A stretch of DNA of 64,000 bases from Taxawa tesnikishii (nom. ined.) (lineage: Eukaryota; Ascomycota; Dothideomycetes; Dothideales). Shown here piece by piece: positions 12,206-64,000 of this stretch. Under the pieces are notes generated by a model. That model did not search any database, was not told the DNA's origin, and saw nothing but the letters and a program-made list of their open reading frames with translations. The stretch spans positions 186,001-250,000 of the forward strand of contig JAPDRO010000017.1 of assembly GCA_030247885.1 (NCBI GenBank), written 5' to 3'. The first letter of the stretch is position 1; each line of letters starts with the position of its first letter. The translations under genes were made by a program, and so were the position numbers.

Positions 12206-12806
12206 TCACATCGACACCTTCCTCGGCATGTCGTTGTGCTCGAGGGAATCTGCGATGCTATCGACGACGCCTTCGCTGTCGGTGCTGATGCGGCGGCGCT
12301 TCTGATGCTTGAGCTGCATTTCCACGTCCATGAGACGGCTCTGGACCCACTGGCGCATGCGGGCGTCATGTCGTACACTCTCGATGTTCAGGAGAGTGGC
12401 CAACGTCGTCTTAATCTGCTTGTTGATGTCGAAAAGCTTGTCCTCGTCGGCATCGACTGGACTTGGCAATGAATCCTCGAATGGCTCCTCCGGTATCGAG
12501 GTTCCACGGAGAGAGGGAGGGAAGTTGCCATGCCGCCGGTGCTAGGGGTGACAGGGGACAGTGTCGGACTCCAGGAGCGGGAGGCGGAAGCGGAGCGCCT
12601 GACGGGTGATGCGGTGGGAGAGGTAGGCGGAGAGGAGCTTTTGTGGATACGTCTGCGGACGTTGGTTTGTTGCGAGTTAAGCATCATGTAGGTTGTAATA
12701 AGAGAGGCCTACCGATTGAAGAGGTCAGGCGTTGCATTTTTTAATATGTGTATCGGATTAAAGATATGCTTACCCGCGATGGACTACCGTCCTGAGAGTC
12801 AGACAT
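12206..12806 (-). CDS. small conserved fungal protein, frame broken once
   Basis: An 11-codon first exon (MSDSQDGSPSR, 12806-12774) is followed by a clean 65-nt intron (12773-12709) and a second exon starting ASLITTYMMLNSQQTNVRRR. This exon continues through a Ser/Pro-rich part into a helical C-terminal region with LFDINKQIKTTLATLLN, VRHDARMRQWVQSRLMDVEM and a basic HQKRRR. The two halves of exon 2 lie in frames that differ by one missing base, with the seam around 12495-12515. The pattern resembles a small conserved ascomycete protein I recall without a name or function. Because both halves look conserved, a sequence error is as likely as gene loss. The chosen start is the only ATG followed by a perfect donor. 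Confidence 0.6.
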
Positions 12807-14080
12807 GAAGAGCCGGGCCATTGGTGTGAATCGTATTCGAAGTTTGCCTTGTGACCTCTGATGGGGCGAGGTCCCGAATGGGATGTGGTTGTCTATATAG
12901 ACCAGACGCTCTGATAAGCGTAGGCAGAACGATCGGGGTGTTTGGATCCTTCAGGGGATTATTTGATTGAAACGATGGGTGAGCGTTGTGAACGTTGAAC
13001 AGTGCTCGAGCTTCGAGGGGTAGCAATGACGATCCTGCTCTTTCCTGTTCAGTGGCTAATGAGAGCGTTTGTATGCGAGCGTTCGTTCGTCTTAGTGCTG
13101 CTGTGCCTGCTGGACGATGGTGCCAGGTGGTAGCTTCGATGGGTGCGAGTGGCTTGTATATAAAAAAGTAGGGTAAGGGAAGGCTCAAATAGGGGATATA
13201 TAGGTACTAAAGTAATAATAATGTTGATATCCTCCCGGCTGCGGCTCCGTGGTTATTTTATCTTCGGAGCATGACGTGCCTCGCTCGCAGTCGTACGTAC
13301 CCTGTTTGCCCTGTTCCATGACCTGAAACTCCAAGGATCGTGACTTGGCGCCACGACGGGCAAATCGGAGCTAGAGCCATCAAAGCAGGTTTGGTGGAGC
13401 AAGAGCCACTGTTGGACGCATCGGCCAGCAGGGCTCGATTTGCGCAGGTGGCGCGATCAGAAAGCCCGTCGCGCTCGTTCAACTCTTCCATGTCGTCGCG
13501 CGTCCCTGGTGATCCGCTGCCCACTTTCGCCTCGTAAGCCGGGATTCAATTAGGCAGTTAGCTAACCCCGGCCCACGCACCGCGAACCACGGCTAGCTAT
13601 ATGTGTCCTCAGCCTGACGTTTGGATTCTTTGCTCTTCCCCTTTGAGTCTAGCCGACGCTGTCCAATTTGCTGTTAGGCGAAGGCGGGGTCGACAGAAGA
13701 AAGAATGAAGTCATGCGCTCGTAACCTCCTCCGCCTGGCACCTCGGCGCTCTTGACCCTTAGCACATGCGCGCGGAGAGCAGTGACCCATTCTTACTCTA
13801 TCAGTGGTGGTGATGGGTGTGAAGGAGGGAGGATGGGATTCAACAGATCATGCTGTCTCCGAACGATAGGAAAGCTACCCAGCTGATGTTACTATCCCAT
13901 CACCAGGATCGTGTGCGAGCCACAACTCATTCCGATGCCGATTTTGCCGTGCGATCCTTGATCCCTTCACAGCAACAGAGAAGGGCACCTTCTCGCGGAA
14001 CAGAAGCCGCCGCAAACCATCCTCATCCAGGATAAGTTATCCTCAATCTCAATACCTAACGGCGCCCCAGTCGCCCAAGT
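12807..14080. other. gene-free stretch
   Basis: About 1.3 kb with only short overlapping frames on both strands and no family resemblance. The right-hand 300 bases before the minus-strand gene start are probably its promoter. The rest (13.2-14.0 kb) shows nothing I can name. Confidence 0.45.
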
Positions 14081-14162
14081 ACATCTGTACCAGATTTCGT
14101 AATGGCTGTCCCGCAGTGCCTACATCTGTACAAGATCTCGTAACAGCTATCCTGCAGTGCAT
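14081..14162 (+). repeat. 41-bp imperfect tandem duplication
   Basis: Two adjacent 41-bp units (14081-14121 and 14122-14162), each starting ACATCTGTAC, match at 34 of 41 positions; five of the seven differences are transitions. The unit is not part of any recognised gene. Confidence 0.85.
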
Positions 14163-14287
14163 TCCCAGTGCGCCGTCGAAATCCCCTGGGCGGATAAAAC
14201 GGCCAAAACCGACAGCGGCAGAGGCGCAGAATTCCACCATCATGCAGCAGCTCACCAACCGCCACATGCCGAATGCTGGGAGGCAGG

Positions 14288-14557
14288 CAGGGGTCGGATT
14301 GAGCTGCGTGGAGTGGAGTCGACACGCAGGCAGGCATTGTGTGCGTGCAATCACGGAGTCGCTTCCAGCGGTAGAGTATTGCTCCGACAGGTGAGCTTGT
14401 CAACAAATCCCATCCGTCGCTATGCGACATTGCCGAACAGGCACAGGCATTTGACAGTGACAGGGGTCGACATGAGTGGAGTCCACGAGCAAGCAGGCAT
14501 TGCATGCAGGTAAGTAACCACGGAGACGCTTCCAATAGGGGAATGAAACCCCGACGG
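14288..14557 (+). repeat. diverged direct repeat of about 100 bp
   Basis: Segments 14288-14391 and about 14460-14557 run parallel: CAGGGGTCG, then GTGGAGTC, CAGGCATTG, CACGGAGNCGCTTCCA and CCGACNGG occur in the same order and spacing in both, with many substitutions and small length changes between. Together with the 41-bp duplication just upstream this marks a patch of old local duplication or an eroded repeat family member. No terminal inverted repeats or coding remnants are visible. Confidence 0.65.
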
Positions 14558-14830
14558 AGCATGTTCCGTGTAGAGGAGACGGGAAAGCCCACCGACCAGG
14601 ATGTCCGACTTCGTCAAAAGCCGCATCTCGATTCTTGGTGCATTTTTCGAATCGCCATGATCCACTTTCGCATCCCGAGAACCGCATTCTCGACTCCGCT
14701 ATAACATCGCCGCCAGGCCCGCCACTTCCGCGCATCGAAGAATCAACACTATATCTCTCGATCCCAACGCTAGTTCTTCGTACACACTGCCCACAAGAGC
14801 CTCACCACAAGAGTCTCATCAGCTTTCGGA

Positions 14831-15645
14831 TTAGTCCACTCGCGCCGTCCCGCTCTCACCACTGGATCCACCGACTCCATCAGCCTCATCACCACCTCCG
14901 CCGACCTCATCAGCATGACTCCTTCCCCTCCAGAATCCCTTCCCATAACTCACACAAATCTCCTCCCCTTCGCAACCCCAGCCTTCCACTTCCCACTCTT
15001 CCCCTCTCCCATCACAAACACTCCAATCCTCCTCTCCCACCCTCCCTCCCCGACCCTGACCCAGCAATCCCTAAATTCCGCATTCGGCCTATCTCTGATC
15101 CCCTGTAATCGTTCACAAACCGCGCCTCATTCCCCTCCCCGTCGCATCCACACTCAACCCCGTCCCGCTGCCGCCAACATCCCTCTCCAAGCTCAAGTCG
15201 TAGTCGGACTCGGGATCCGTATCCCCGACCGCGTCCGTGTGCACGCGGCCCAGGTAGTGCAGGACGAAGGATCCCGGCGGCAGATGGCGCGTTGCGAAGA
15301 GCCCGCACTGCCCGTACGCCGGGTGCGCGGCGTCCGTGATCCTCTCTATCCTGACGAGCGGACACGGCTTGGCGAGCTCGGCGTCGGCGGTTTTGGGCAG
15401 GGCGGCGGTGGCGCGCGAGGGCGTGTTGAGGAGCTTGAGGAGGAGCGGGTCACGTGGGGAGAGCTGGTCGGCTGGGTTAGGTAGGTGATGCCCGACGAGG
15501 AAGGCCAGTTGATGGGCAGGGCTGGACGTGTCGGACGTGCTGTGGGAGAATGAGCGCTGGGAGTGTTTGGGTTTGGAAGAGGCTTCGGGACTGTGTATTT
15601 GGCGGTGCCGTCGACGCTCGATGATTTGGAAGCTGAAGACGGCAT
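14831..15645 (-). CDS. SET-domain protein, reading frame broken in several places
   Basis: Minus-strand pieces follow the order of a fungal SET-domain (methyltransferase-like) protein. They are an N-terminal part with KYTVPKPLPNP and PALPINWPSS, then CPLVRIERITDAAHPAYGQC with GLFATRHLPPGSFVLHYLG (about 15325-15235), SDYDLSLERD, NEARFVNDYRG, RPNAEFRDCWVRVGE, and finally EEICVSYGKGFW near 14960. The NEARFVNDYRG part corresponds to the cofactor/pseudoknot motif of SET folds. Frame changes occur near 15465, 15134, 15102 and 14967. The last three each fall in a run of four G (C on the plus strand) where a fifth base would keep the consensus frame. I therefore suspect assembly errors over true decay. 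The substrate is unknown; the start at 15645 is the only ATG in the first frame. Confidence 0.6.
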
Positions 15646-16504
15646 GGCTTGCGTGTGGTTGAAACTGTTTCTCACTGGAACTGTGACCTTCTTGAACAGA
15701 CGCTTGCCCCGTTTGGACTTGGAGCCGCTTTTGCCAGTAGAGAGGGTGGGCTGTCCGGATGCTGCTGCACCCTTGGTAATCCGCACGCGAGAACGCAACG
15801 AGTTTCGGTAGCGACTACGCGCAGAGGAACCGTTCTCCTCCGTATGGTAGTACGAACCGCGTGATGTTCTTGCGGCCAGAAGATGCAAATACGAACATGT
15901 GAAGGGATTATAGATGTGAGAAAAAAGGTCTTGCGCTATCTGAGATGGTAGGTGGTGTTTTACATGGTTGTGATGGCCCACGTCCGCGTCTGGATTTTCC
16001 CACGGATATTTCTCGTCCAACGCAGCAACTCGTTGAACTTATCGTTTCCAGAATCGATGATACTAGGGAATTTAACGACTCGATGCACGCAAAACTGATC
16101 TAGATGCAGGTGTTCAGGTTCTAGAAAAGTAATTGGAATCCTGTCGCACGACAAACGCCTGCTCTTGGCGTTGGTCACGGTGAGGGTCTGACGTTTCTTG
16201 TGTTCGTTCAAGCCCGCACGCTCCTGCTGCTTGATAAAGATGAGGTTATGGTTTGCAAATTGTATTCATCTCATTTCAAGCCAACTCAGGTGCTCAAGAG
16301 GCCTTTGTCATACCTACCGGTCTTTCACGATATCAAACACAGCAACAAGGAATGAATAGGTAGCGGTCGAATGCTTTTTCCAGCCTTTTCGGTTCTTCGC
16401 TAAGTCATCATTATTTACATAGACACATCGTATTTTCGGCCTTCCCCGCGACTCCGCAGGGAGGCTCCATATCATATCCTTCTCATTCCGACAGGATGGT
16501 TCCT
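15646..16504. other. intergenic, SET gene to mannitol dehydrogenase
   Basis: This 860-bp stretch contains the region upstream of the SET gene and the 3' end of the mannitol dehydrogenase gene (both -). The first 200 bases continue open in the SET-gene frame and read basic (KSGSKSKRGKRLFKK), so the SET protein may start further upstream through a missed exon. No other feature is seen. Confidence 0.4.
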
Positions 16505-18234
<1,730 letters not shown>

Positions 18235-20016
18235 ATGTATTCAACCCGTCAAGTAGACGATCAGGTCCTTATCCTGCGCCAACGCGTACAAGACGCCGAA
18301 ACCCAACTGCGCGACCTGAAACTACAACTCCAACAAGCCGAAGCACAAGCTCAAGCCGCCCACGACCTGAGTCAAGCCTACGAGGGCGGACTACCTTTGA
18401 CTGGCAAGATGAACTGCACGCTGTACTCTCGCACAACAGCACCTATGTTCCAGAGCCCTCGACCGCCGCCGCTGCCTCTACCGGCAACGAAGAACCAATC
18501 AAGCACGAGCAGCCATGGTCGTGGCCGCTGACAGCAGAAGATTACAAGCGTTATGGCCGCCAGCTCATCATGCCTGAAATCGGACTACAGGGCCAACTCC
18601 GCCTGAAGCGCGCGCGTGTGCTCCTAGTCGGCGTAGGCGGTCTGGGATGTCCTGCTGCCGCATACCTAGCCGGTGCGGGCGTGGGCACGCTGGGGTTGAT
18701 AGATGGGGACACGGTCGAGGTGTCCAACTTGCATCGACAGGTCGCGCACTCGACGGAAAGAGTCGGGATGAGTAAAGTGGATAGCGCGATTGAGTATCTG
18801 CGGGCGTGCGTGTTGTCCTCCCTCTCTTTTCCATCCTCTGCTCCCGCCCGGACATCCGATACTGTACCGACGGACTCGTTTTGTCGAGTTGTCCCGGCAA
18901 GAGAAGTAAGACCAAGAGCAGGTGAGCTAAGACTGTAGCAATAGGCTGAACCCCAACCCCACATACATCCCCCACCGCTACCACCTCGTCCCTCAAGACG
19001 CCCTCGCCCTCTTCTCCGCGTACGACCTCGTCCTTGATTGCACCGACCACCCAACCTCGCGCTACCTGATCTCAGACGCGTGTGTACTGGCAGGCAGACC
19101 GCTCGTCTCAGCGTCTGCACTGCGCTCAGAGGGACAGCTCATGGTGCTCAACTGTCCCGCAAAAGCTCCCGGAGCAGGCGACGGCGGGCCCTGCTACCGC
19201 TGCGTATTCCCCAAGCCTCCACCCGCGGAGAGCGTCGTCAGTTGCGGCGAGGGCGGCATCCTAGGACCCGTCGTGGGCGTCATGGGCGTGCTCCAAGCGC
19301 TCGAAGCCATCAAGGTCATCGCGCGAGGCGCGCTGGACCCCGTCGACGTCGACACCCCCATGAGCGACGGCAGTCCCAACCTCACCACCACCACCTCCGC
19401 CGGACCCGGACCCGGACCCGATCCGAAGCCCGCAGCGCCACCGGCGCCGCCCTCTCTGCTCCTCTTCTCCGCCTTCACGAGCCCGCCCTTCCGCACCGTG
19501 CGCCTGCGCTCCCGACGCGCGAACTGCGTCGCTTGCTCCGCGCACGCCATCATCACGGCCGACAGCCTGACGTCCGGCAGTCTGGACTACGTCGCCTTCT
19601 GCGGCGCGACGAAGCCCGTTTCCCTGCTCGGGCCCGAAGAGAGGATCTCCGCGACCGACTTTGCGACGCTGGTGAGCCGGCAGGAAGGGATCGAGGACCG
19701 CGTGGACGGGGGTGAGAGAGTGCTCGTCGACGTGCGCGACGCGACCCGCTTCGAGCTCGCGCACTTGCCGGGCTCGGTCAATATCCCCTGGAGCGGGTTT
19801 GCGGACGCTGTCGCGGCCAAGGAAGGCGAGGGCGACGGGGACGACGCGAGCAGCTGGAAGGGTAAACAGGTGTTTGTCGTCTGTCGCCTCGGAAACGATT
19901 CGCAGCTCGCGGTCAGGATGCTCAAGGACAGTGGCGTAGCAGGCGATGCTCGCGACATCGAGGGTGGGTTCAGGGCATGGAGGAATGAAGTCGATGGCGA
20001 ATGGCCGGATTGTTGA
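18235..20016 (+). CDS. UBA4: UBA4/MOCS3-type adenylyltransferase-sulfurtransferase
   Basis: The protein activates the ubiquitin-like Urm1 for tRNA wobble-uridine thiolation and protein urmylation, and its MOCS3-type relatives also serve molybdopterin synthase. The N-terminus is a coiled coil ([20 protein letters not shown]). The E1-like domain follows with [19 protein letters not shown], the acidic loop [13 protein letters not shown], zinc cysteine pairs CYRC and CVAC, and the transfer cysteine in SCGEGGILG. The C-terminal rhodanese domain carries the active-site loop CRLGNDSQ. One intron (18806-18944) joins in phase. The coiled-coil part and the E1 part are one base out of frame, with the seam at about 18381-18390 (GAGGGCGG); restoring one base gives a normal protein. 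This is an essential-type housekeeping gene, so a sequence error is the simplest reading. Confidence 0.92.
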
Positions 20017-20817
20017 GGCTCGAAAATGACGTGTCGTTGCTCCTTTGATCATCCAGTGGTGTTTCCGCCGGAGAGGTTCGGTGGCATCTCCGATGAGAGT
20101 ACACAGGGGGATGTGTGGATTTGGAATGACTACTTCGAGATTCGCCAGCTTGAGAGGACTGTCTGAGGAGACAGTATCGGTTTTGCGGTGCCTGGAGTTG
20201 TCGCTGCGAGTGTGACGATGCGGGATACGTGTAAGTGCGCAAAGAGTCTGGAGAGAATTGTTGGAGCATTGATGAAAAGGCGCTTGGTAAGAGATGCGGT
20301 TTATTCGGACGGGGTTGATCGGGATGTGTCGACAAGAGCTCAGTCACTTTGCACAATGGATACAGCGAGAGGATTAGATGCCGGGCCAAAAGTCGGACCG
20401 CCGGCAGCGCATAGTTTTGTTTGAGATAGTCGGCCGTGAAAGCACGATTTATCGTACAAAGGATATCTATGGCTGGAAGCACATATTGACAGCAAAAGTC
20501 CGATAAAAACATCCGCGCAATGTTTGGTAAAGAGAATTAATTGGTTGAGAAAGAGATGATAACCCGCCGCAATGGACAGAACAAAGAAGGCTCCCTCGAG
20601 ATAAAACTCATTAGCAGGAGAGAGATTTTGAAATCTACGAAACCGATCAAAACGTGTGAGCGAAAACGTCGTTGTGCCCCGAGTCGTGAGAAAGCATACA
20701 GGCCCGGACGCCTGATTGCTAATGTTGTCGTGACCCCGTTGCCGAATCCATCACCCCTCATCCCCATGTCTTCACATCAGGCCATAGAGGCTAGACGCGA
20801 GCCCACGGACGAGACGC
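20017..20817. other. convergent intergenic region
   Basis: An 801-bp gap lies between the 3' ends of UBA4 (+) and the cell-wall protein (-). It has a low-complexity AT-rich part around 20440-20640. No coding or RNA feature is recognised. Confidence 0.45.
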
Positions 20818-44453: not shown

Positions 44454-45905
44454 ATGGCAACCGTGAAGCGGATGAGGATGACCACCAACGAAGTCGATGT
44501 TCACCGAGACCAGCGGGAGCACGTGTACGATGAGGCTGAGACGGAAGAGGCAGAGCAGATGGACGAGTCCCGGGGACCCCTAGAAGAGAGCGGCTGTACT
44601 CATGACGGCGAGAGTGAGGAAGAGGTTGAGGAATGCGTGGCCGAAGACATGGAGCGTTTTGAGCAGTCGTTCAGGAACATCACCCAGCGTTATAAGCTCA
44701 TCAACCGTATTGGTGAAGGTACGTAGCGTCATGTACCTTTTTCCATAGTTGTAACCGTTGACTCCTTCCAGGCACCTTCTCTACTGTCTATAAGGCAGAG
44801 GACCTATTGTACGACCGTTACCAAAACGACTGGAACCAAGACGAGAAGGCCTTGCCACACAGCAAGCACGCCGCAGAACCCCAGCGCAAGCCGAAACCGC
44901 GTTATGTCGCCATCAAAAGATTTACGTGACATCCTCACCCATGCGCATTTTCAACGAGCTCGAACTCCTCTACGACCTCAGAGACTCACCCAACGTGTGT
45001 CCGCTCATCACCGCCTTCCGCCACCAAGATCAAGTCATCGCCGTACTCCCCTACTTCCAACATCGCGACTTCCGGGAGTACTTCCGGGACATGCCAATAC
45101 CAGAGATGCGATATTACTTCACCTCTCTCTTCACCGCCGTCGCCGCCGTGCACGAAAAGCGCATTATCCACCGCGACATCAAGCCGACAAACTTCCTGTA
45201 CTCGCCTGGCTCGCGGCGGGGTGTGCTCGTCGATTTCGGACTCGCTGAGCGTGAAGGTACAGACTGGTATGCCTGTAACTGCAGCTACGACCCTGAGGAC
45301 AGACGGCGGCGGATCCAGCACTCCGCGTACGCGAAGACGAAGGCCCACCACCGCGCCATGGACCGCGACGCACCGATCATGTATCCCAAGGAAGACCAGC
45401 GGCATTCGCGGCGTGCAAACAGGGCAGGAACAAGAGGCTTTCGCGCGCCGGAAGTGCTGCTGAAGTGCACGGCGCAGACGTGCAGCATCGATGTGTGGTC
45501 GTGCGGCGTCATCCTGCTGACCCTACTCTCTCGGCGGTTTCCTTTTTCCACAGCGCAGACGATATCGATGCGTTTATCGAACTGTGTACCATATTCGGCA
45601 AGCGTCGCATGCAGGAGTGCGCGTCCCTGCACGGCCAGGTGCTCCAGACTACCATCCCCACCATCTCGGAGGGCGGACATAGCTGGGAGAAGATCTTGCT
45701 GTGGTGCACTAATCGCAACAAGAAAGAGCAGGGTGGCGGATTAACAGCTGAGGAGACAGAGGCCGTGGAGTTCATGCGCTGTTGTTTGGAGCTGGATCCG
45801 GCCAAGAGAATCACCGCAAACGACGCCTTGAGGCATCCATTCCTTCAGATCAGGGAGGGCGATGATGAAGAAGACGGCATGGATCGTGGTTCGCAAGAGA
45901 AATGA
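44454..45905 (+). CDS. CDC7: CDC7/Hsk1 protein kinase (Dbf4-dependent kinase)
   Basis: The kinase fires replication origins by phosphorylating MCM proteins. An acidic N-terminus (DEAETEEAEQMDESRG) precedes the kinase domain: YKLINRIGEGTFSTVYKAED across the intron 44719-44771, VAIK, ELELLYDLRDSPNVCPLITA, catalytic loop IIHRDIKPTNFLYS, DFGLAE, a family-typical insert, GTRGFRAPEVLLK and DVWSCGVILLTLLSRRFPF, then ELDPAKRITANDALRHPFLQ. The frame breaks twice by one missing base: at AAAA 44915-44918, where one more A gives the family's IKKIYVTSSPMRI, and at TTTTT 45543-45547, where one more T gives FPFFHSADDIDAF. Both fixes restore invariant sequence in an essential gene, so assembly error is likely. 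Confidence 0.94.
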
Positions 45906-47329: not shown

Positions 47330-47987
47330 GATGCGGGCTGTGGTGGTGAATCTCCTCATTCACGAATCTGTCGTTTAGATATGGGTTGTGCAAGATAAAC
47401 CAGAGCTTTGCGTGCTGTAGTTCAGGCAGATAATTGCCTCTCATCATGGATGAGGTCGTGTGGACAGCTGTGGCGAGAATGCAGGATGATGTCATTTGTT
47501 TATCCCAGGGACCGTTGTTTGTTAGTTCGAGACTTTCTTCTGATTGAGTTGTCTGCCTCCAACCGTCTTTTCTTCATGTCCGTAGGCTATGCGATGCAGA
47601 TACACTTGCTGCAGCATTCTGAATTCGCTATGTCGAATCGGGCCCGTTACCATGCTCCTGCGCCTTCACGGTTGCCACATGTTGTGAATGCGCTGGCCGG
47701 GGACCGTGCTCGCGTTTCAAATTAGAGCAGCTGGAGATTGTCTACCAGCCGCGCGTGCCCCTTTCCACCACGCTACGATGCTGTTGCCCGGACTCAGAGA
47801 CACCGACCGCATCTCCACGTAAAGCACAGGGCACCCAGATGAGAGAATAGAATATTCACATGTCTGTCACCCGACTCCCAACGGGAACAGGAGCGGAAGC
47901 GAGTTAACACTCGAGGATCGTCTACCGAGAACATATTCTTTCACGGAAGCATTCGACTACCTCCACCTCCACCTCCACCTCCACACC
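47330..47987. promoter_or_regulatory. divergent intergenic region
   Basis: A 658-bp gap between acylphosphatase (-) and the next gene (+). A CCTCCA hexamer tract (about 47959-47982) stands directly before the plus-strand ATG and is probably in its 5' leader. Confidence 0.45.
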
Positions 47988-49534
47988 ATGGCTGATATCA
48001 GTCCGCCGATGAGCAGCAGCAACTCCCCGTTCTGCGGCCGGGTTCTCCCTCACCGAGTGTCTCGCCTTCGCTGGCCTTGGGAGCTTGTCCACTCCTCGAC
48101 CGCTCTGTCTCTGCGAATTCTACCGTGTCGACACAATCAGCACGATCCGTTTCGGAAGGTGGAACGCGTCGTCGAGGATACATGCGTCCACAGGGGACGT
48201 CATTTGCAGACTCTGCACGCAACCGTGACAGCGTGATGAGTCTTGGAAGCATAGCCCACATGCAATATTACTTTGCCAGGACGGGCTTGTTGGACGGAAA
48301 AGGTGCACAACTAGCAAGGGAGAAGAGGAAGACGTCAGGAAGCACGACCATAGAGCCGGTCATAGTCACCGAATCCGACCCTATCACACCGCCCTTGTCA
48401 ACAGATGGTTTGTCGGTATACGGAGGCTTGGGTATAAGCAACCCGGACCAACAAGGCTTCGTCAGCAGTCCCACAGACATGCATGCTACCGAAGAGCCCT
48501 GGAACGACTCCCTTGAACCCATGATGCTGCCACCGACTGTGAGCACGTACAAGCACAAAGAACCGTACCTGCAACCGCTTCCGGACATGCCGGTCCTTCG
48601 ACGAGAACTCAGAGAAACCCTGGAAGATGCTCGAAAATTGCTCGAAGAGTCAAATGATGGGCAAGTGGGTGAGTCTGGAAAATCAAGCCCAACAGCCTCG
48701 CCCAAACCATCGGAGAAGGAGAAGCAGGGGTGGTATGAAGTTCAGGGCATGCACATGCTGGACATTGTAACGCTTGCCATTCGAGCCGCGAAGAACTACT
48801 ACACCTCACACACCCACCCGCAGAAGCTTTACGCCGTTCGATCGGAACGCGAGATACGGTCTGATCTCTACCAGGTGCTGGAGATCCTCAAGCGGACAGC
48901 GAACAGAGAGTTCAGAGGAGGGATCCGACAGACGGAGCGTCAGGGCATTCTAGGCTGGATTGAGAGCATACACACTCTGTTGTCACGCGAGGAGGAGCAG
49001 GAGCGAGAAGAGCGAGTACATCGTAACCAATGGCAATGGCAGAGTGGGCATTGGGAAGGTCGCGAACGTGAGCGGGAATGGCTCTTCCTCAACACCTTCG
49101 ATACGAACGACGAGCCCCTGCCGCAATGGACTGAGCTGCCGGAAGATGGACCATCGCCGTTTCTCGAGGTACTCAGCAACGGCTTGAGGCTCGTATGCCT
49201 CCACAACGAGATCATCGAGCGGTCCAAGCGGCGGTTCAACGAGGTCAAGACATTCCACACAGATACCGCCAAGCCTTACCGGTGCGCGGACAACCTTCGA
49301 TACTGGATCAAGGCTGCCGAACTACGATGGGAGATCAAGTTGACCGTCAACGTCATGGACGTGGTTACGGGCAAGGACGCGGCTGCATGGAAGCAATTCG
49401 ACGAAGCAGTGCTGGTTTGGTGCAAGGGCGTGAGGGAAGAGTTCGTCAGGGAGTGGGCAGAGGCAGAAGCCAACGCGGAGAGACGGCCACCGGAGCTGCT
49501 CGTCCAGGGTGTTGAAGTGCAAGCGGAACACTGA
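47988..49534 (+). CDS. conserved fungal protein, function unknown
   Basis: The ATG at 47988 opens MADISPPMSSSNSP; after one missing base at CCCC 48025-48028 the frame continues VLRPGSPSPSVSPSLALG and then uninterrupted to 49534, about 515 residues in all. The first 210 residues are Ser/Pro-rich and disordered; the region around SLGSIAHMQYYFARTGLLDG is strongly conserved in character. The rest is a helical domain (DIVTLAIRAAKNYYTSHTHP, EIRSDLYQVLEILKRTANRE, CADNLRYWIKAAELRWEIKL) without catalytic motifs. I recall similar uncharacterised proteins in many ascomycetes but no function. The alternative start inside the second frame would need MGACPLLDRS at 48077, which is not preceded by a better context. 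Confidence 0.75.
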
Positions 49535-50563: not shown

Positions 50564-53166
50564 ATGGCGCACCCGTTCTTTCATGGCTCACTGGACTATG
50601 CGCACGCACTTGAGGACAACAGGGATCTGGCGAGCGACCAGTCGTCAATCATCAGTTTAAGCGAGAGGATGGCCGACACGGACGTTGAAGAGGATACGAG
50701 AAAGTATAGGCTTCCGGATATAGGAAAGACGAGACTGCACCTACACACCAAGAAGGAGTTTGAAGACGTCTCTTCCGCTACTCCCTTGTCAATCTCAACG
50801 AGCGCATCAGGAACCCCAGACGCCGGAGCTACTCCAGGCGCGACGTCACCTAGGCCTCCTGTCTCGGACGGCGATGCAAGTGACAGCGATTTCGTTGCCT
50901 CGGGCATATCCCGCGCTGCCTCCATCTACACTCTGTCCAGAGTCTCCCTTGCAAGCCAGCTGTCACAACTCACCTCGATCCAACTCCCGAACGCCATTTC
51001 TCTGTCATCCAGGATCACTTCGATTTCGACTTGCGTTGCAGCTTCAAAGGCCTTGTCAGACGCAGCGGAACAGATACGCCTATGGATGAAGAAGGCTTCG
51101 GATGTCCTCAATGGCTTGGACGCGGAGGATGACGTTGAGTGGGCCGCAGCAGGAGGAAGAGATGGGCTGGAAGAGGTGGACTCGGCTATCAGCCGGTTCG
51201 ACACCATGGTTAGGATGTACATCATCGCGATTGAGGAACTCCAGATGCGAACGGACATTTCTGACTTATCTGCTGAACAACTTCGCGCAAATGTCGAGCA
51301 GATGGAGGGGATCCTCAAGGAATGGCAGAAGGTCAAAGAAACGTTGAGGGGTGTGAAAGAGCAGGTAGAGGTTGCGATGGAGTGGGAGGAGCTATGCAAC
51401 ACCGTCTTAGGCGAGATTGGACAGGAGCTAGATGAGTTGGGGCGGTTGGTCTTTGAGATGGAAGAAAAGAGGCATCGGTCCGTAATAGCTGAAGCCTTTG
51501 CCGAGGCAGCGAACGGTGTCGATATCAATCACCTTGCGACTATTGTGGAGGAAAAGCCTTCGAACCGCAAGTCAGCAGTAAGCAACCGCTTCAGTCTGCC
51601 GCCGTTCTCGCCTACGTCCCCAGTTCGCTCACCGCCAGCTTCCAACGACAAAGACGACCAGAATCTTCTGGCACTGTTCGCACGCATGCAACCCTTGAGA
51701 GCTTCTCTAGACTTTCTGCCAATGAGGCTCTCTGTTTTTCATTGCAGAGGAAACCCAGTCTTTCCCACCGCCTGCATAGAACTCGAGAAGAGGCGAGATG
51801 CGCTAGAGGAACAGTGGAAGAAACTTGAGGGCGATGCTGAGGCTTTAAGAAGAGAGCTTGGCGAGGACCGCTGGGTACTGGTGTTCCGCAATGCTGGGCG
51901 ACAGGCCCTCAAGATGTGCGAGTCGGTCACCCGCAGTCACGACAAGCTGAAAGAGGCTATCGGAAAGGGCGAGCAACACGCCAACATGCCTGTTGTGGCC
52001 AGGATGATTGAAAGCTACGAGGCTAAGAAGACCCATTACGGACCGGCCATTGAGCGTGTGCTGGCCATCATTGACAGGGGTGTCCTTGACCGGTTGACCG
52101 TCAACGGGGAAATCCTCAGACTGCAATCAGACATGAAGCGGCGATGGAACGCGCTCGAAGCGGACATGCGCGATCTGGACATAAGCCTGGAAGAGATCAC
52201 TGCGAACTCGAGAAACCAGCAACTCCGCGACTCGATTTCTACCATCCTCTCCTCTGAGCGGTCTCTAGCCAGTAGCGCCATTGATACCCCAGGGAGCTCA
52301 CCTGCATCGTCGGTGGTTCTCACCAGTCGCAAAAGCAGCTTTCATGATGCGTCTACACCCATCGGGTCTGCTAAGAAAGCCATCAGTACTCCTGCAAAGC
52401 GCACTACAAGCTTAGGTTGGCAGAGCAGCATTCCGCGCAGGACGCCGCTTTCGGCAAGGTCAACAGCTTCACCGGCGAGTTCAATACGGAGCGTCTCGAC
52501 TCCACTATCCCCAACGAGGCCCATCGAACCCTACACCAGCACACCCTCCCCCTCCTCCGCGAATTGAAGCAACCGGCCGGCAAACCACGCTTCTCAACCT
52601 CGACCAGCGGCTCCGCCAGTGTCGACTTCCTCCCCCTCTCCGCCCTGGAACCCTCTCGATACCGCAAAACACCCGTGCCCCGCCGCACCATCACTCCACG
52701 CACCCCAGCCTCACAGCTCGCCACCCCGAGCCCCTTAAGCCGCAACGCCACCTCCCCGACCCCACCAAAACCAACATCCCCCTCCACCCCATCCTTCGGC
52801 CGCCAACTCTCCGCCTCCGCGTCCAGTCCGCTCGCGCCACCCAGCACCACCCCTCTGGCGGCTGGGCGGTCTCCGTCCTCGTTGGCCAGTTACACAAGAT
52901 CCCGCATCACCACACCAGCATCCGGCAAGCAAGCCGCAGCGGGCACGAGGCGGAAAAGCCTTCTGGGCCCGCCGCTTGCGGATGAGAACGACGCTGACAC
53001 AGAGACCAAGTATCGATCTCGCCCGCCGAGCGCGTTGGCCACGCCAAGCGGGAGGAGGAGCAGCAGCGTGCTTCCGCAACCGAAGGCTAGAGAGAAGGGC
53101 GGAGGAAGGGACAGCAGGCTTGAGGGGAGCGTGCTGTCGGTGAAGGAGAAACCGCGGTGGCGTTGA
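50564..53166 (+). CDS. KAR9: KAR9-type spindle-orientation protein
   Basis: Kar9 links the microtubule tip protein Bim1/EB1 to myosin V to position spindle and nucleus. The ATG at 50564 (MAHPFFHGSLDYAHALEDNR) opens about 860 residues. The family core includes TRKYRLPDIGKTRLHLHTKK, IYTLSRVSLASQLSQLTSIQ, DVLNGLDAEDDVEWAAAGGR, VKEQVEVAMEWEELCNTVLG with VFEMEEKRHRS, and coiled coils to about residue 600. The rest is Ser/Pro/Arg-rich with SxIP-like pieces (SSIPRRTP; EB1-binding type) and ends EKPRWR. Near CCCCC 52548-52552 one missing base moves the frame. The downstream frame (LLRELKQPAGKPRFSTST ... RPPSALATPSGRRSSS) carries the conserved tail, so the stop at 52567 is probably artefactual. Confidence 0.9.
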
Positions 53167-53532: not shown

Positions 53533-56500
53533 TCACCGTCTCGCGCCATCCGCATTCCGCTCGAAGAGCTTGTAGAAAACCTCCATCCATTTCTTCTGCC
53601 TCTCACTCGGCTCCCTGCCGGGGTTCTTCAGCGACCGTGCCAGCACATCCCTCGCCTTGGCCCTTAGCGTCTTGAGCACAATCATGGTCCGCCAATCACG
53701 GACCTTGAATCTCAACCTGTTCCCGTCCACGATGATCACGCCGGCGTACATGTTGAACACGGCATCGCCGGCCAACAGCACGAGCGCGAAGTCGGACACG
53801 GGGCTCGTTTCCTGCGCGTTGGTGAAGCGCGACGAGGACTGCATGATGCTATAGAAAGACAGGAATCTCGCATCGAGGGAGGCGCCTTTGTTGACGGACG
53901 ACGGGTGCAGGCTGACGGCTTGGTTGTTGGCGATGTTGCGCCAGCCCTTGCCGTCCCGTGCCAGCACTTTGGGGTAGAAGGACCAGGCGGTGACGGAGTT
54001 GATCAAGAGGTCGTTGTTGTCCGCGAAGTTTTGACCGGAGGGGACGGAGACGAAGGTCCTGTTGCGGCCGGACTGTCGAACGCGCGACAAGGCGGCACGC
54101 TCCCCGGCTTCGAGGCTCACGAAGCCCGCGTCGGCGAGTGAGGATAGCAGCTGGCTCTTCAGATCCTCGATGTTGGCAAGGTTTTGGGGAGACAGGAAGT
54201 TCTTCTTGCAGAACTGGAACTCTGAGGAGCCGGGCGTTGTGCAGACACGACGCCAGGCCAGGTATGCATTGTAGGCGGTCAGAAGGTCCGAGTCGCCGCG
54301 CTTGAAGCCAAGCCGCACGCTGTCGGCTTGCTTCTTGGCGTTCATGGGTGCGAGGAAGGGCGATTTGGAGGACAGGATGGCGGCAGTGGTGAGGGCGAAG
54401 TCAACGCAGCCGTAAGTGCTTCCGAGCAGAATGAGTTTTCCCAATTGAGCATCTAATGGCAATTTGGCCAGTTGTAGACCAAGAGGGGTCAATTCTTCTC
54501 TCGACGTCAGTGCATTGACTTCAACCAACGCATCGATAGCTCGTCTGATGTTCTTGAGTGAAGGAGGATCCAACGCCGCTGACAACGCCTGCTCGATGTC
54601 TCCGAGGTTGCAAATTTTGACCCGCATGACAAGGTCCTGCAGCGATAACCGCAACATCTCCGGAGTTTGCTGTTCAGCCATGATCTCATCGTGCCGATAC
54701 TTGGTGAAGAGGTGGAAACAGATGCCTTCTTGTACACGTCCGGCTCTGCCGCGCCTTTGCTTGGCGTTCGCCCTCGAGATGAATGACTGGATCAACCTTG
54801 ACAGCTGCCGCCGCTCATCGAACCGCATCTCCTTGTGCTTGCCAGTGTCGATGACACATGTAACGTCAGGGATAGTAACCCCAGTCTCAGCGATATTAGT
54901 AGCCAGTACGATTTTTCTCACACCGGGAGGGGGTATGTTAAACGCTGCCTGCTGCTCTTCACTAGAGAAAGAAGAGTGCAAAGGATACACCAGCCAGCCT
55001 TGTGAGAAGGACGGATGCCCGGTGAGCATTTCATTGAGCTGCCGGATTTCAGCGATGCCTGGGAGAAAAACCAAGATTGCTTTGCTGTAGTTGCTGTACA
55101 GCTGATGGTAGGCCACCTTCTCCAGAAGTCTGAGAATCAAGCCGTAATCCACCCTATACTCATCGTAACTGGCCAAAGTCTTCACTGTCTTGGGACTGTA
55201 TCCGACAAGGTGCTGCTGGGTTGTTGATGAGGTCTGTTGAGCCATGTCGTCGTCGGCCTCATCGTCGTCATCGTTTCTTTGAGCGTTGTTCGAGTCGTTT
55301 TCCGGAGAGTAGCCAGTCAGCTCGATGGCATCCTCGAGAAATTTGGCCTGCACGGGGAAGGTACGGCCAGGCACCGTCACAATCGGGGCATTGTCAAGAT
55401 ATCTCGAGAAGCGATCGGCGTCTACAGTAGCGCTCATAAGCACGACCTTCAAATCAGGGCGCCTTGTCATAAGACTTTTCAGGACGATTAAAAGAAAGTC
55501 GGTGTCGATACTAAGAAAGCGTGAGAAACTACCCACCCCAATCGTGGTACGTTAGCTTACCTGCGCTCGTGTATCTCATCTATGACGAGGTGTGTGATGC
55601 CGTCAAGTTCCTTGGCTGACTCAAGCATTCGAAGAACGATTCCAACCGTTGCGTATACGAGACGGGTCTGCGCCACGGTCTGCGATTCCAGACGAATAGC
55701 ATAGCCAACCAGAGAACGTGCAGTTCCCACAGATCCCCTGCCCTCACCGAGTTCTTCGCTTACTCGCTGAGCAAGGGATATGGCCGAGATACGGCGGGGT
55801 TCTGTACAGTACACCTTACAATGTCTACCACGAGACAATTCATGTTCAAGAATGAAGGCGGGCATCTGGGTGCTCTTACCGCAACCCGTCTCTCCACACA
55901 GGATTGTGACTTGGTTATGTTCAACAGCAGCAAGAGCAACATCCCGGAATTGGTACATTGGCAGGTTCATACGGCCGACGAGCATCTGTTGGTAGGCGGG
56001 CGTAGACGTCTTTCTGGCCCAAAGGTCTTGTAGCGCGGGGAGACATCTGCTTGGCCTCTGCCAGCCGTCTTATCAGAGCTGACTGGAGTGGAAACTCCGC
56101 TTGTACCTTTACTTCTGTTTCTGAAGCTTGCAGTGAGCACAACGTCTTCGTCTTCTTCTCTCTCCACTTGTTCCCGTATCAGTGTCCGCAGAGACTTTAC
56201 TGTCTCACGATCCGTAGTATCTGTTCGTTCTTTCTTCGCATTTACGAACTCTTGCCAGAGATCCCTGAAAGCAGGTGGAAGACGCAAAGCAGCCTTTTCT
56301 TCTTTCGGAGAGGTAGAGAATAAGAGGAAAAGGGCGGCTGTTGAGACATATCCTTCGCTTTGCGCAACGTCGGGGGTCGCAATCTTGGTCATCATGATCG
56401 TCGTAGAGCGAGACACTGAACGAACAGTCACGTCTAGCATGAAAGACGCGTCAATGGGTTCCTGGTCTTTAGACCAATGGATAGTAACGGAGTGTCGACT

Positions 56501-58020
56501 TGAGTATGTGGTTGGGGAAATCATCTTGAACTGAAGCCTTGCACCGGGGTCCCTCGCACGACAGGCTTCTTCCAGGATTCTTCGAGCACTCATACCTGGC
56601 AGCTTTCCGAAATTACGCTTGGTGACGCCCACAGTGTCTGTTAGTATCTCACTTGCTCCATCCGAACCGGGCTCTGCCGGCGCGTCAAACATGCCACTTA
56701 GAAAACCAGAGTCACCATCTGCATTGCTCTCCCGAAGAAGTAGATTGGCCATCTCCTCCGCTTCTTTCATCACATCATCCGCACGTGTTTCCTCGATGGC
56801 GACATTTGAGTTGCCATTGCTCTGTGGCTTCTCAGTTTCCTCCGATATCTGCAGCTTCTTGCGTTCGGATTGATCCCGGATGATGTCGAGCCTCTGTTCA
56901 GACCATTTGTGGTCCGCCGCTTGCTGATCGAACAGTACATCGGACTCGATAATCTTCAGTCTTTGCAAAAGTTTTGTCTCGCCACGAGAAGCTTTCGGGG
57001 AGGCTTTGCTGCATTGCTCTGTCGCTTGCGTGCCTTCTTGTTACCAGAGCCACCGTCGCTCTCGATGAGATCAGAGTTCCGCTGGTATAGCCGAGTCTTG
57101 ATTTGTAGGTACTTCGAGAGCATCTCGTCAGGGTCAAGGTCGCTCTCGAGGTCACTGACTTCAATGTCATCATCGGATGACTGGTTGATCTCGGTCGAAT
57201 TTCTGGCCTCTTCTTGCTTCTTTTGCGGGTTGGCCGACGAAGTTGCATCTGGGCTTGCCTCCTCTGGCATTTCAGGCTCTCTAGATGGGCCATCTGTCGA
57301 ACCAGGCTTAGGCCTCGGGGTCGCATCGTAATCGAGAAGTTCGCCACTTGCGCTATGCAAAGGGAGCCAATCAAGCGCTTCCGTTAGGCCCCAAGACAGA
57401 TTACCACTTTCTTCTTGCGGTGGATGTGCTAAGATGTATTTGATTGCCTCGTTAACGCGCTGTTGTGATATGCCCAAGTCGGAAAATGTAAGGTACAGCT
57501 GCCATATCTTTGACAACAAATCATCTTCCGGAATGCTCTTGGCGGTTGTAGGCTTGTCGTTATGGAAAGGGGTTCCGAGGTGTTCTTCTTCCTCTATGAG
57601 ATCCAAAATCTGAAGCATAAGCTCTTCCGGCAGCCAGTCCCGAACAGTCAGGTTGTCAGCTTGCCCGCGGAAGACTCTGCGGTCAGTCTGTAGCCTCGCG
57701 ACTTGACGTGCTGATTCCTTTCGAACCTTCGGCCCTTGTTGGTCGATGACGTTCTGCAGCTCAGAAGTCTCAAGTTGCTGTTCGAGCTCCTCCGGGCTTA
57801 ATTCGTGAAGCTCGCGTGACTTGTCCTTGGACGGTGATGATGCTATGCGATCTTCGGACGTCACAGAAGTCGGCGCAGTAGCTATCGAAGCAGTCTCTGA
57901 TGCATCAGTACTCGCATCATTGGTCTTTTCCGGTTTTGGTTTTGAGGCGATCGAGGTAGTAGCGAAACCTCTCGCAGGATTAGCGGCGGGCTTTGTTTTC
58001 TTCTTCTTCCCTCCCGCCAT
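53533..58020 (-). CDS. DExH-box RNA helicase of the DHX29/DHX57/YLR419W type
   Basis: About 1480 residues on the minus strand. The N-terminal third is Lys-rich then helical with acidic patches (MAGGKKKKTK; EELEQQLETSELQNVIDQQG; WGLTEALDWLPLHS, a UBA-like piece). The helicase core shows motif I CGETGCGKST, Ia TEPRRISAISLAQRV, II DEIH, III SATVDADRF, V TNIAETGVTIPDVTCVID and VI QRRGRAGR, then the helicase-associated and OB-fold C-terminus. One 50-nt intron (55511-55560) joins in phase. Two frame breaks by one missing base occur, at GGGG 56997-57000 (before ETKLLQRLKIIESDVLFDQ) and GGGG 56037-56040 (before LQDLWARKTSTPAYQQMLVG); a fifth G (C on the coding strand) restores each. The family acts in translation initiation or ribosome-linked RNA remodelling. 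Confidence 0.9.
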
Positions 58021-58509
58021 ATCTCAATATCCAAGCAGATGCAAATGTGCTGAGGGACCCTTGGCTGCAGAGCGACGTCGTGAGAAGGTAGGTTCTGTAT
58101 TGCGACTTGGAACAAAATGAGGACGTGGAACGCGCGCGCAGTGAATTATTGAACCCCTCGAACTGACGGGACTGACGTATGGAGCCGCAGAACTATGGGA
58201 CATCAGATGTAGAGAATGAGGTAGAAGTAGATATGGATATCTCTCCAGGCAGCCTACTCATGCGGAAACACCGCAATTCCGCATGAGAACGTCTCGAACA
58301 AGCCGAGTACAAGCCGAGTACAAGACGATCGACGTCTTTGTTCGGTCTTCACTGGGGTTGAGAAGATAGCATGCTCAAGGTATCCAGCGACTTGTGGTGT
58401 TAAGCGAGCTTCGGGAAAAACTACCTTCTGGAGATACCGCAGCACTGGGTTTAACACTCTAGCAAGCCATCTGCGGCAAGCCAACAGGTGGCACACTTCA
58501 CCTCAGGAA
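58021..58509. promoter_or_regulatory. shared divergent promoter of the helicase and GCN1
   Basis: A 489-bp gap between two divergent starts, both probable translation factors. An imperfect doublet AAGCCGAGTACAAGCCGAGT lies at about 58303-58322. No coding frame is credible. Confidence 0.5.
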
Positions 58510-61500
58510 ATGATGGCGGACGGCGTGCTGGATGGCGAGCAATCTCTGGATCTGAGAGTCTTGCGCCGGACGCTGCTCGGAAATTCCACAAACAGACGGA
58601 GTGTCGAGCTCCAGAGTCTCAGCGAGAGGATTGACAGTAAAGGTAGATCGGTGGGATGAGATTTCTGTTTCACTCGCCAGCGACTGACTGCGGCATGTAG
58701 ATGTAACTCCCGATCAATTCTCTCCTATATTAGACATCGTCTTCGACACATACCCGCTCTACATCGATTCCAAGTCCAGGCAAGCTGCCGAGCAATGCCT
58801 GTTCAGCATTCTTCGCGCTCCCGGCGCCGAAGCGCATGTTCCAAAGTTCATTGGAGATGTTGAGAAAGAGACAGGGAAGCCTGGCATAGCCCCTGCGAAC
58901 GCCTTTGTGTTGATAAGGTGGTGCAGCCTTCTGCTCCAGCAATATGGACAGAACAGAGCGCTGTGGGATGCTTGGGGAATCAAGACTGTACATGCGCTCG
59001 CTAGGGCGACAACCACTTTTCTGAGTTCCGGACCCCGAGAGAGCACCAGGCAAACTTCTCTACGAGTAACGCGCCGTGGCTTCCGGAAATTGTTCAGCTC
59101 AGACTTTGGAGAGGAACCTTTGAATCAATCCGTTTCGGCTCTTGCGGCCAAGGCGGCTTCCCCAAGTCCTCATAATGCTGTTATACTTGGGTTCATTGCG
59201 GGAGTCTCGAGCAGGCTGCCTAGCCGTCGTGATGCCTTACAGTCGCGCAAAGCGGATTACAACGCCTTCTATCTTAGAGAAGTCATTGGGTCAAGAACGG
59301 CGCTACCCGCTTATATTGCAGACGGCTTGCACGATTATTTCTGCAGCTTCGTTTCCTTAGAAGACCTCAAGAGAGAGATTGTTCCTGCCGTTGAGAAGGC
59401 GTTGCTAAGAGCTCCAGAAGTCGTTCTGAATGACCTCGTTGCACCTATGATACAGTCTCTACCTGAGGAACTTGATCTCTCGGACATCCTTGTCAGCAAT
59501 TTGTTGAAACCGCTCACTGCCAACGTCAAATCCACGAATGCTGTCATCCGATCGGGAGCCCTGCGGACCTTCAGCACTACTGTTTCCCGTTGCTCTGACG
59601 AGAAGAGTTTGGAAAAGGTGGCAGATGAACTACTCACACCCTTGAAGCAAGGAAAGGTTACTGCCGCGGATCAGAGAACGTCTTTCTCTCAAATGCTGAG
59701 TGCTCTCAAGAGCTCGCCTGGTCTGGCGACGAAAGTTCCCACTGGGCTTGCGCCTGTCGCTGTGAAGGAAGCGAACGAGGCGGCTGCAGCGGCGGAGACA
59801 GAAGCGATCTCTAAGCACTTGCAGTACGGCTTGCAGCATGACATCGCCCCGGATGCCGCTACAACCGATGCTTTTGTCAAAGGACTTGGTGAAAAACGCT
59901 TGCCTTTCCGGAAATTGTGGGGATTGCGCCTGGCAGAAACGCTGTGGCCGCTCAACGAGGATCTTCTACAAAAACCGCATGTTGCACCTCTCATCGATGC
60001 CACTGCCGGCAAGCTCATTGATATATGGAATGAGGTTCTCGCTAATCCTATGCCGGCCATACAAACCGGTCAAGTATCTGTGGCATGCGCTGCAACAGCA
60101 CTTAGTCTATCCAAGTTAGCCAAGCTTTCCGGCCTGAAATGCGCGTCAACACTGAAGAAGGTATCCATTTCCGATCGCGTGTTGGCCATGCAGCCAAAGC
60201 CTTCATTCCTGCTCAACGCCCGTGTTTACACCAAACTCACTGGTACTGACGATCTGACCTGGTTTTTGAGAGCACTAGCGGCTTCCGCAGATAACGCGCC
60301 GGCTGTCTTGCAGTCTCAGGAAGTGGCTGAGGCATGGGCGCAAGCATACATCTATCTCATTGCGGCCTCAGGCGTTCCTGCGTCCGCCAAGAGCGAGGCC
60401 AGCAGGACTCTCCGCGAGCTATATCTCGCACAGCCAGCACCCATTGCCAAGCTTGTCACAGACGGCATCTCACGTTGGTGTATTGACGTCGAGCAGGATG
60501 CCAAGGAAAGTGCTGCAGTGGCGTCTCGTGCGGGTAGAAACGACCTGTACAAGGTTGTCCGTTGCGTTAGCGTGGCTAAGGAAGATGCGGAAAGGGCCAG
60601 CACAGTCAGTCAGGATATCCTGGACAAACAGCTTGTTGATCTATTGATCGTTTGCCGTTCGGACCTGGTCCCTAGGGCTGAATGGATAGAAACTTGCCTC
60701 AAGACCGGAACGGATCCTGGCGATCTCGTGAGAAGATCTAGCGCAGACTGCATGAAGGCGATTATAGCTGTCACCGAGGTAAATGATAAATACTCTCTAC
60801 ATCATAGACATACTAATGATCAACAGGATTCCACCCTTGTTCGCATACCAGCCTTCCAGACTGCGGCATTCAATGCTGCTGCCGATTTGGCTTTCGTAGC
60901 TCCAGATACCTTAACTTCTGTTGTATTGGAACAAATATCAAACGATCTCGATCCCAGACAGCTCGAGTCAATCGGGCCGACTGAGGCCGCCATATTCCGG
61001 ACCCCTGAAGGCACTGCATTCGTTGATGTTCTTGCCAAGCAAACAAAAGCCCAGCCTCCAAGCAAGAACAGCAAAGACTACGATACCTTGAAGTGGGAAG
61101 AAGAACTTCGCGCTCAGCTGGCTCAGAAGAAGGGTCAAACAAAGAAACTCACCTCTGACGAACAAGCTAAAGTGAACGCACAGCTAGCCAAGGAAGCCGG
61201 CATACGGCGTGAAGTCGCCGGAGTGGAAGCCAGATTGAGACGTGGCATGGGCATAGTTACTAGTCTTGTTTCTGGTCCGCCGACCGAAACTGAAAGCTGG
61301 TTTGGACCTGCGACAACACGCCTCATGGAGGTCATAGACGCTGGCGCAGGACTTATCCTCGGAGATGCTGCAGCGCTGACATACCTGCATTGCGCCCAGA
61401 GGACATCAAGCCGGTTGGGCCCCATGCGACCTTTCGTTGGTGTTGCCACTCTAAGAGCAGCAGATATCAGCGTGCTTCCAGCAAACATGCAAGAGGAACC

Positions 61501-64000
61501 TCTAGGCGACCTCATAACAAGAGTTCTGTATCGCCTGAGGTTCTTGGGCGAACAGCGTCCCTTCGATGTTGCTACCTTGAGTTATATTTTACCGCTGATA
61601 TTCCTGGTTTTGGAGAAGGGCGGAGTAGGAAGACCTGCCGGCGAGGAAGTGGATGAGCAGATTGTGCTCGCTACAGAATTCTTGACATTCTCTACGCAGA
61701 CGTGTAGCGACATCAGGCTTCCTCGTCAGCGTCTCCTGTCTGTGTTGATTTCATCTCTCCAAGCCTATCAACAGCACTTTCGCCCTATCAGGGATTGTTT
61801 TACGGATCTGTGTCGTTCCATTGCATCGAATGCCACAGAATCCGAGCTTGTTGTCGTGGTCAAGGGCACCATCGTTCCAGAAGCGGCAGTGCGTACTGCA
61901 GTACTACAAGCCATCAGTGCAGAGCTAGACCTTACGGATCATGACTTCTACGAAGGGATATGGCTCGCCAAGCACGACGATCTGGAAGAGAATGTGGACA
62001 TCGCGGACGAAATCTGGGAGGAGAACGACATGAAGACGTCTCCGGACGCTGCTTCTCTGATGCTACCACACCTGGAGTCTACCGACGCGCAGTTGAGAAG
62101 AGCGGCAGCTCGCTCGCTTGCTGGCCTAGTAACGGAGCATCCCGTTACATTCAAGAGCGTGCTCTCGCAATTGAAAACTATCTACAAGGACAGAGCGAAA
62201 CCAAGGGTTCCGGAGCGGGATGAATACGGTATGCCTCGGAAAATGGATCTCGCAGACCCGTGGCAAGCTAGACATGGTATCTCGCTTGCCTATAAAGAAC
62301 TCGCATCCATCTTTGTTGATGACGAACTGGTGCCTTTCATGCAGTTCTTGGTTGTGGACGGACCTCTGGGTGACAAGAACGGCAATGTCCGCGATGGCAT
62401 GGTCGATGCAGCTACTGCTGTTGTCACGCTCAAGGGTGGTGTCAAGGTAGAAGAGTTGATGAAGTTGTTCGAGGATACTCTTGCAACTTCCGACAAGGGC
62501 TCCCAAAACCAGGACCAAGTCAACGAGGCTGTAGTCATCCTCTACGGAGCTTTGGCGCGGCATCTCAAGGCAGGCGACTCGAGAGTACCAAAGGTCGTCC
62601 AGCGTTTACTCTCAACGTTGAGCACTCCTTCCGAGTCTGTGCAATATGCCGTTGCACAGTGCCTTCCCCACTCGTTCAAGCATCTAATCAGGAAGCCAGC
62701 CGATACGTCAAGCAGATGATGGACGAGATGTTGCAAAGCAAAAGTACGCCTCGCGCAGAGGTGCAGCGTATGGTCTGGCAGGTATCATCAAAGGCAGAGG
62801 TATTGCCGCCCTTCGAGAGTTCCGCGTCATGCCAACGTTGGCGGGTGCTGTTGAGAACAAGAAGGATCCAAACCAACGACAGGGTGCCTTCTTGGCATAC
62901 GAGTTGCTGTCACTCGTCCTCGGCCGTGTATTCGAACCTTATGTGATCCAAATCGTCCCACAGCTGCTTGTAGGGTTTGGCGACACCAGCGCGGACGTCC
63001 GAGAGGCTTGTCTCGATGCTGCCAAGACATGCTTTGCCACTCTCAGTTCCTTTGGTGTCAAGCAAGTCTTGCCAATGTTACTTGAAGGTCTGGACGAGCA
63101 GCAGTGGCGCAGCAAAAGGGAGCATGTGATTCTCTGGGTGCCATGGCGTACCTTGATCCACAACAGCTCGCCCTCAGCCTGCCTGAAATCATTCCACCGC
63201 TTACTGAAACCCTTAACGACAGCCACAAAGAAGTCAGAACTGCGGCCAACAAGAGTTTGCAGCGTTTCGGTGAGGTCATCAGCAATCCCGAGATCAAGAG
63301 TCAGGTCAATATCTTGCTCAAGGCTTTGAGCGATCCGACAAAGTACACAGATGAGGCTCTCGATGCATTGATCAAGGTCAACTTCATCCACTACTTGGAT
63401 GCTCCATCACTAGCCCTAGTGGTGCGCATTCTCCAACGCGGACTGGGAGACCGGTCTGCAACCAAGCGCAAGGCATCTCAAATCATTGGAAGCCTTGCCC
63501 ACCTTACGGACCGCAAGGATCTAGTCTCTCATCTACCTATCCTTGTTGCTGGTTTGAGGGTCGCTATTGTCGATCCTGTTCCCACAACTCGTGCAACCGC
63601 TTCCAAAGCACTCGGCTCCACTATTGAGAAGCTCGGCGAAGATGCACTACCTGACCTCATCCCAAGTCTTATGGCTACGCTCAAGTCAGACACAGGTGCC
63701 GGCGATAGACTTGGATCTGCGCAGGCACTCAGTGAGGTCCTGGCTGGTCTCGGAACTGCTCGTCTTGAGGAGACTCTACCAACTATCTTGCAGAACGTCT
63801 CTAGTTCCAAGGCATCCGTACGCGAAGGATTCATGTCTCTATTCATTTTCCTGCCAGCGTGCTTCGGCAACAGCTTTGCCAACTACCTTGGCCGTATCAT
63901 CCCTCCTATCCTGTCCGGTCTAGCAGATGACATCGAATCCATCCGCGAGACCGCGTTGCGTGCAGGTCGTCTGCTTGTCAAGAATTTCGCGACACGCGCC
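58510..64000 (+). CDS. GCN1: GCN1, translational activator of the Gcn2 kinase (partial)
   Basis: Gcn1 is a giant HEAT-repeat protein that sits on ribosomes with Gcn20 and relays uncharged-tRNA or collision signals to Gcn2. Exon 1 (58510-58642, MMADGVLDGEQSLD) joins in phase to exon 2 at 58701. A 48-nt intron with a TACTAAT branch lies at 60779-60826 and keeps the frame open, so it could be missed. About 1810 residues are in the window; the gene runs off the right edge near two thirds of the usual 2670. The EF3-like region reads RRGAAYGLAGIIKGRG and GAVENKKDPNQRQGAFLAYE. Three single-base losses break the frame near 62690, at AAAA 62740-62743 and at AAAA 63114-63117; each repair gives invariant sequence (LLQSKKYASRRGAA-type; RSKKGACDSLGAMAYL). 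Assembly error is likely. Confidence 0.95.

Follow-up and report, generated by a model that had tools for sequence, protein, structure and literature searches.

Nanopore sequencing offers the closest described counterpart to the damage reported here. According to the portions of a published error profile drawn on here, nanopore reads render homopolymers rather well up to a length of 5 (4 in human and in high-GC bacteria), while beyond a length of 4 to 5 run length tends to be underestimated, with deletions predominant and a worse outcome at high GC (PMC8486125). The same portions report some strong overestimates of run length and a dependence of read accuracy on the bases that flank the run. 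In a nanopore-only assembly of Drechmeria coniospora, excerpts of the report state that homopolymer errors broke the reading frames of conserved genes and that short-read polishing corrected them (PMC7500977), and the abstract describing Kastor states that frameshifts and stops make genes look like pseudogenes (PMC12007338).

The locus analysed here shows the same kind of damage, in conserved genes and at homopolymers, as the Drechmeria coniospora assembly, although the excerpts of that report describe polishing that left more insertions than deletions, whereas every step placed here is a loss (PMC7500977). It shares its length threshold and its direction of loss with the nanopore read profile, but that profile, in the portions used, measures reads, whereas what we describe is a consensus, and one without overestimates (PMC8486125). 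Kastor and Homopolish, as their summaries present them, target systematic errors of draft assemblies like those encountered here; they are correction tools, whereas nothing was corrected in this work (PMC12007338, PMC8011154).

The window, by which we mean the whole stretch of 64,000 nucleotides that was analysed, spans positions 186001-250000 of contig C9 in a genome of 29.37 Mb and 34 contigs. It contains fungal-type genes with short introns and one 5S gene at 11567-11686. A sequence-only reading of this stretch had listed 16 frame breaks and attributed every one to the loss of a single base, mostly in runs of four. Fifteen of the 16 are indeed −1 steps (Table 1), and all 15 steps that could be placed, with the frames flanking each site entered by hand, run in that one direction. 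The sixteenth, near 12505, has ambiguous frames, and the two pieces around it gave no match when searched against families. It lies in an unnamed minus-strand gene (window 12210-12710) whose ambiguous frames allow for either a loss or an intron. At a −1 step the sequence is short of one base or, in formal terms, carries two extra, and judged from the reading frame rather than from reads, the 15 steps would be deletions. Three of them sit about 10 to 40 bases from where they had first been put.

The expectation that most losses fall in four-base runs was borne out: 11 of the 15 steps lie at runs of four, two at runs of five (45543 and 52548), one at a run of three (18396) and one at no run (15503), which places 13 at runs of four or five and two elsewhere. 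The affected runs comprise all four bases, in genes on either strand. Steps were assigned to tier 1 where the junction is backed by a database alignment or profile and to tier 2, which holds 6 of the 15, where it is backed by open frames, by a family on one side or by matches below cut-off. Pfam scans covered part of the combinations of frames and regions in the window, and a coding-bias frame model gave coarse help only, because codon bias is weak. By our own tally, which leaves out open frames without a family, losses occur in 8 of the 14 window genes inspected, with at least one each in SET, mannitol dehydrogenase, UBA4-like, CDC7, the unnamed gene at 48 kb, KAR9, DHX29-like and GCN1. A non-exhaustive look at Thi4, the 29-kb transporter, VAC14, AsnRS, a pyridine nucleotide-disulphide oxidoreductase and a condensin subunit saw no loss. 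For an MFS transporter on the minus strand (window 3899-4333), the N-terminal part alone was matched; introns or additional losses may have put its remainder into a different frame.

Table 1. Placed −1 steps in the window, with the homopolymer run at each and the evidence for the junction.
Gene	Position	Strand	Run	Evidence	Tier	Sequence-only position
SET gene	14965..14968	-	C4 (G4 in gene)	joined-piece profile	1	
SET gene	15100..15103	-	C4	joined-piece profile	1	
SET gene	15132..15135	-	C4	joined-piece profile	1	
SET gene	15490..15510 (near 15503)	-	no run of at least 3	by eye, weak	2	near 15465
NADP mannitol dehydrogenase	16697..16700	-	G4	Pfam frames and structure match	1	
UBA4-like gene	18396..18398	+	T3		2	near 18385
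CDC7 kinase	44915..44918	+	A4	upstream side by reading only	1	
CDC7 kinase	45543..45547	+	T5	alignment and profile	1	
Unnamed gene starting 47988	48025..48028	+	C4	open frames	2	
KAR9	52548..52552	+	C5	downstream side by reading only	2	
DHX29-like helicase	56037..56040	-	G4 (C4 in gene)		2	
DHX29-like helicase	56997..57000	-	G4 (C4 in gene)		2	
GCN1	62666..62669	+	C4	alignment to 8i9x_LR	1	near 62690
GCN1	62740..62743	+	A4	alignment	1	
GCN1	63114..63117	+	A4	alignment	1	

GCN1 is the cleanest case among the window genes. Its first piece aligned to PDB chain 8i9x_LR through residue 1357, the second starts at residue 1370 of that chain and the third at residue 1495; for a short stretch between the steps at 62666 and 62740, the comparison with the printed chain was visual only. 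The entry labels 8i9x_LR a ribosomal protein, but its identity as a GCN1 is supported because pieces 2 and 3 match 7nrc, which is named GCN1. A PDB search with a wrong-frame GCN1 piece returned no match.

When the four pieces of the SET gene were scanned singly, no SET match was obtained; once linked by X across the breaks, they matched PF00856 over profile positions 2-105 of 105, with a score of 23.7 that is narrowly above the cut-off of 22.4 bits. In the mannitol dehydrogenase, one piece matches adh_short_C2 and the C-terminal piece matches 7krg and also 3gdf. The middle piece of CDC7 aligns to 7p5z, named Cell division control protein 7, and the last piece matches the end of the kinase profile; the first (N-lobe) piece, upstream of 44915, gave no match when scanned alone. 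Among the tier 2 genes, the UBA4-like gene has a ThiF match downstream of its step only, the upstream side being by reading only, the upstream piece of KAR9 matches KAR9 and its downstream piece nothing, and the pieces on either side of 56997 in the helicase match DHX29 domains below cut-off. A profile search of the unnamed gene starting at 47988 found no relevant family. Directly before its ATG lies a short CTCCAC-type tandem repeat (window 47955-47986).

Frame changes at about 32680, 42971, 36012, 36593, 55557 and 44700 were weighed as additional losses but dismissed, since by eye they have intron-like borders; such borders occur in VAC14, AsnRS, the condensin subunit, CDC7 at 44.7 kb and the helicase at 55.56 kb. 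The sequence-only reading had left these changes out of its list, rightly so on the appearance of their borders.

We asked how apparent shortening depends on run length within coding-like intervals of the window, which were drawn by hand, amount to about 30 kb and include some introns. As read, runs of four number 179 in these intervals, runs of five 26 and runs of six 2. Grouped by likely former length, with losses assigned by hand, 11 of 35 five-base runs appear shortened, while the count is 1 of 169 for runs of four and 2 of 4 for runs of six; on these hand assignments, the difference between four- and five-base runs has a Fisher P of about 9e-9. With about a third of hand-assigned five-base runs affected, loss is partial, as had been proposed from intact A5 runs in GCN1; such runs are present, at 59892 and 59970 rather than exactly at 59930. 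In a larger sample of 264 kb (the window together with 20 stretches of 10 kb), the chance that a G/C run grows by one base is about 0.20 from 3 to 4, about 0.14 from 4 to 5 and 0.08 from 5 to 6, with no further fall above five, where counts are tiny, while the chance for A/T runs stays near 0.20 throughout, without depletion.

Shortened A runs are preceded by C and followed by G at all three window sites (44915, 62740 and 63114) and at 3 of 4 sites elsewhere, while 2 of the 10 unshortened A runs with at least five bases in the coding-like window have these flanks, a contrast of small numbers that was noticed after the fact. Either lysine codon pairs or flank-dependent base-calling may account for it. 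The 5S rRNA genes, dispersed over 47 places, of which 44 span exactly 120 bases, were considered as a control. The sequences of the 20 copies that were aligned differ much and their consensus has no run above four; their diversity and their scarcity of long runs make these copies unfit for a test of loss.

The same signature extends beyond the window. Seven Pfam families were searched across the genome (29.4 Mb), and 154 of 263 match rows were used, namely those for which inspection by eye suggested a neighbouring match (CCT, 24 of 24; HSP70, 17 of 20; SNF2, 11 of 35; kinase, 73 of 141; tRNA-synt_1, 4 of 9; adaptin, 15 of 19; kinesin, 10 of 15). Among the 84 pairs of neighbouring matches compared, nine, located without recourse to run information, have an excess of less than 40 bases, which is smaller than every intron size observed in this work; each of the nine is a −1 step, and none is +1. 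In 45 pairs the excess is 44-65 bases, as is usual for introns here (18 are −1, 24 are +1 and 3 are 0); these pairs were classed by length of excess alone. The 30 pairs with an excess of more than 65 bases comprise 20 in frame, 10 at −1 and none at +1; these ten −1 pairs may hold introns or further losses. One of the 45 pairs of intron size, a kinesin on C23 with an excess of 44 bases, is, on a reading of the DNA, a tenth −1 step, with no intron border seen.

At nine of these ten junctions, a run of four or five lies within 6 bases of the junction interval, compared with 2.1 of 10 expected by chance from resampled coding-like window sequence (P about 1.8e-6; hits were scored by hand, and the junction intervals range from 4 to 76 bases). 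The exception is SNF2 on C30, whose closest run stands about 40 bases away; in SNF2 on C12, a long junction interval contains two runs, which leaves the exact place ambiguous. Breaks thus occur on C9 (the window), C1, C3, C4, C7, C12, C14, C23 and C30, in unrelated genes on either strand. An eighth family, DEAD-box, showed by eye no junction below intron size among 39 rows. A search of this kind misses many breaks; the kinase rows, for example, show neither of the breaks in CDC7, and matches with internal stops may hide others. One tRNA-synt_1 match that was left out (C1, 572421-574634) reads through eight stops and has a second match nested in it in another frame; it may hold introns or further losses.

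Kinase matches on C2 (about 91-966 kb) fall into look-alike groups. Those at 413883, 810272 and 878577 are 753 bases each, with one TGA and one TAG, and further look-alike pairs lie at 446460 and 965342 and at 91522 and 543198. Such grouping is suggestive of a repeated element. Of the 20 stretches sampled for run growth, the two from C2 have the lowest G+C.

We considered several ways in which the frame breaks could belong to the organism itself. Unrecognised introns could produce frame changes, and others in the same genes do look intron-like by eye, namely the six rejected positions and 16797-16857. At the listed sites, however, two frames abut with no spare sequence between them, and the excess at nine junctions outside the window is less than 40 bases, which makes introns an extremely unlikely source of the breaks. 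The frames of conserved genes are truly broken in the sequence as given, as they would be in real pseudogenes or in a decaying set of copies within a hybrid or duplicated genome. Yet a search with the GCN1 piece located it once in the whole genome, with no second copy (a test that covered GCN1 only), and the same signature is found outside the window in CCT chaperonin, HSP70, kinase and SNF2 genes. Moreover, pseudogene decay should also yield insertions, longer deletions and stops, whereas +1 steps are absent below 40 bases of excess, and we regard decay as very improbable.

It could also be that the one-base losses are real in a living genome and that many essential proteins are recovered through slippage, ribosomal or transcriptional, at short homopolymers of whichever base. 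A −1 slip could in principle supply the missing base, and A-run losses have common C/G flanks more often than intact A runs do. However, all four bases occur among the affected runs, which speaks against one motif, a C before and a G after an A run is what a lysine codon pair following C gives, and, in the portions of PMC8486125 used here, flanking bases are reported to affect read accuracy and the length threshold is that of sequencing error. The relatives 8i9x_LR and 7p5z, for their part, align across the sites as one chain, and we give slippage during expression hardly any credence. Mismatch-repair-deficient strains gain one-base changes in runs, which is what real homopolymer slippage in a mutator strain would look like. 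But about a third of the coding-like five-base runs would then be shortened, with CDC7, which is essential in yeast, among the genes hit, and a haploid in that state should not live. Mutator slippage is, in addition, expected in both directions, whereas +1 steps were unseen; a mutator strain therefore has only the slightest chance of being the cause.

Instead, a sequencing and polishing artefact of the documented kind almost certainly explains the frame breaks. The assembly would under-call homopolymers, such that a true run of five or more identical bases would often appear one base short in the consensus; polishing would have left the shortened runs uncured, and each loss inside a gene would shift the reading frame by −1. 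The uniform −1 direction, the dependence on run length, the involvement of all bases on either strand and the published nanopore profile all agree with the original proposal of deletion-biased long-read error with incomplete polishing, and they point to the reads rather than the organism as the cause and to nanopore as the platform. This kind of artefact is already known, and the value of the present case is as a warning.

In the organism itself, the genes are very probably intact. Given that the lost bases are very probably an artefact of assembly, the broken genes should not be read as dead, and the caution that frame-broken genes in this stretch are not to be taken as pseudogenes is supported. 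Automated annotation is likely to split or truncate many conserved genes of this genome or to call them pseudogenes, and claims of gene loss based on it are unsafe.
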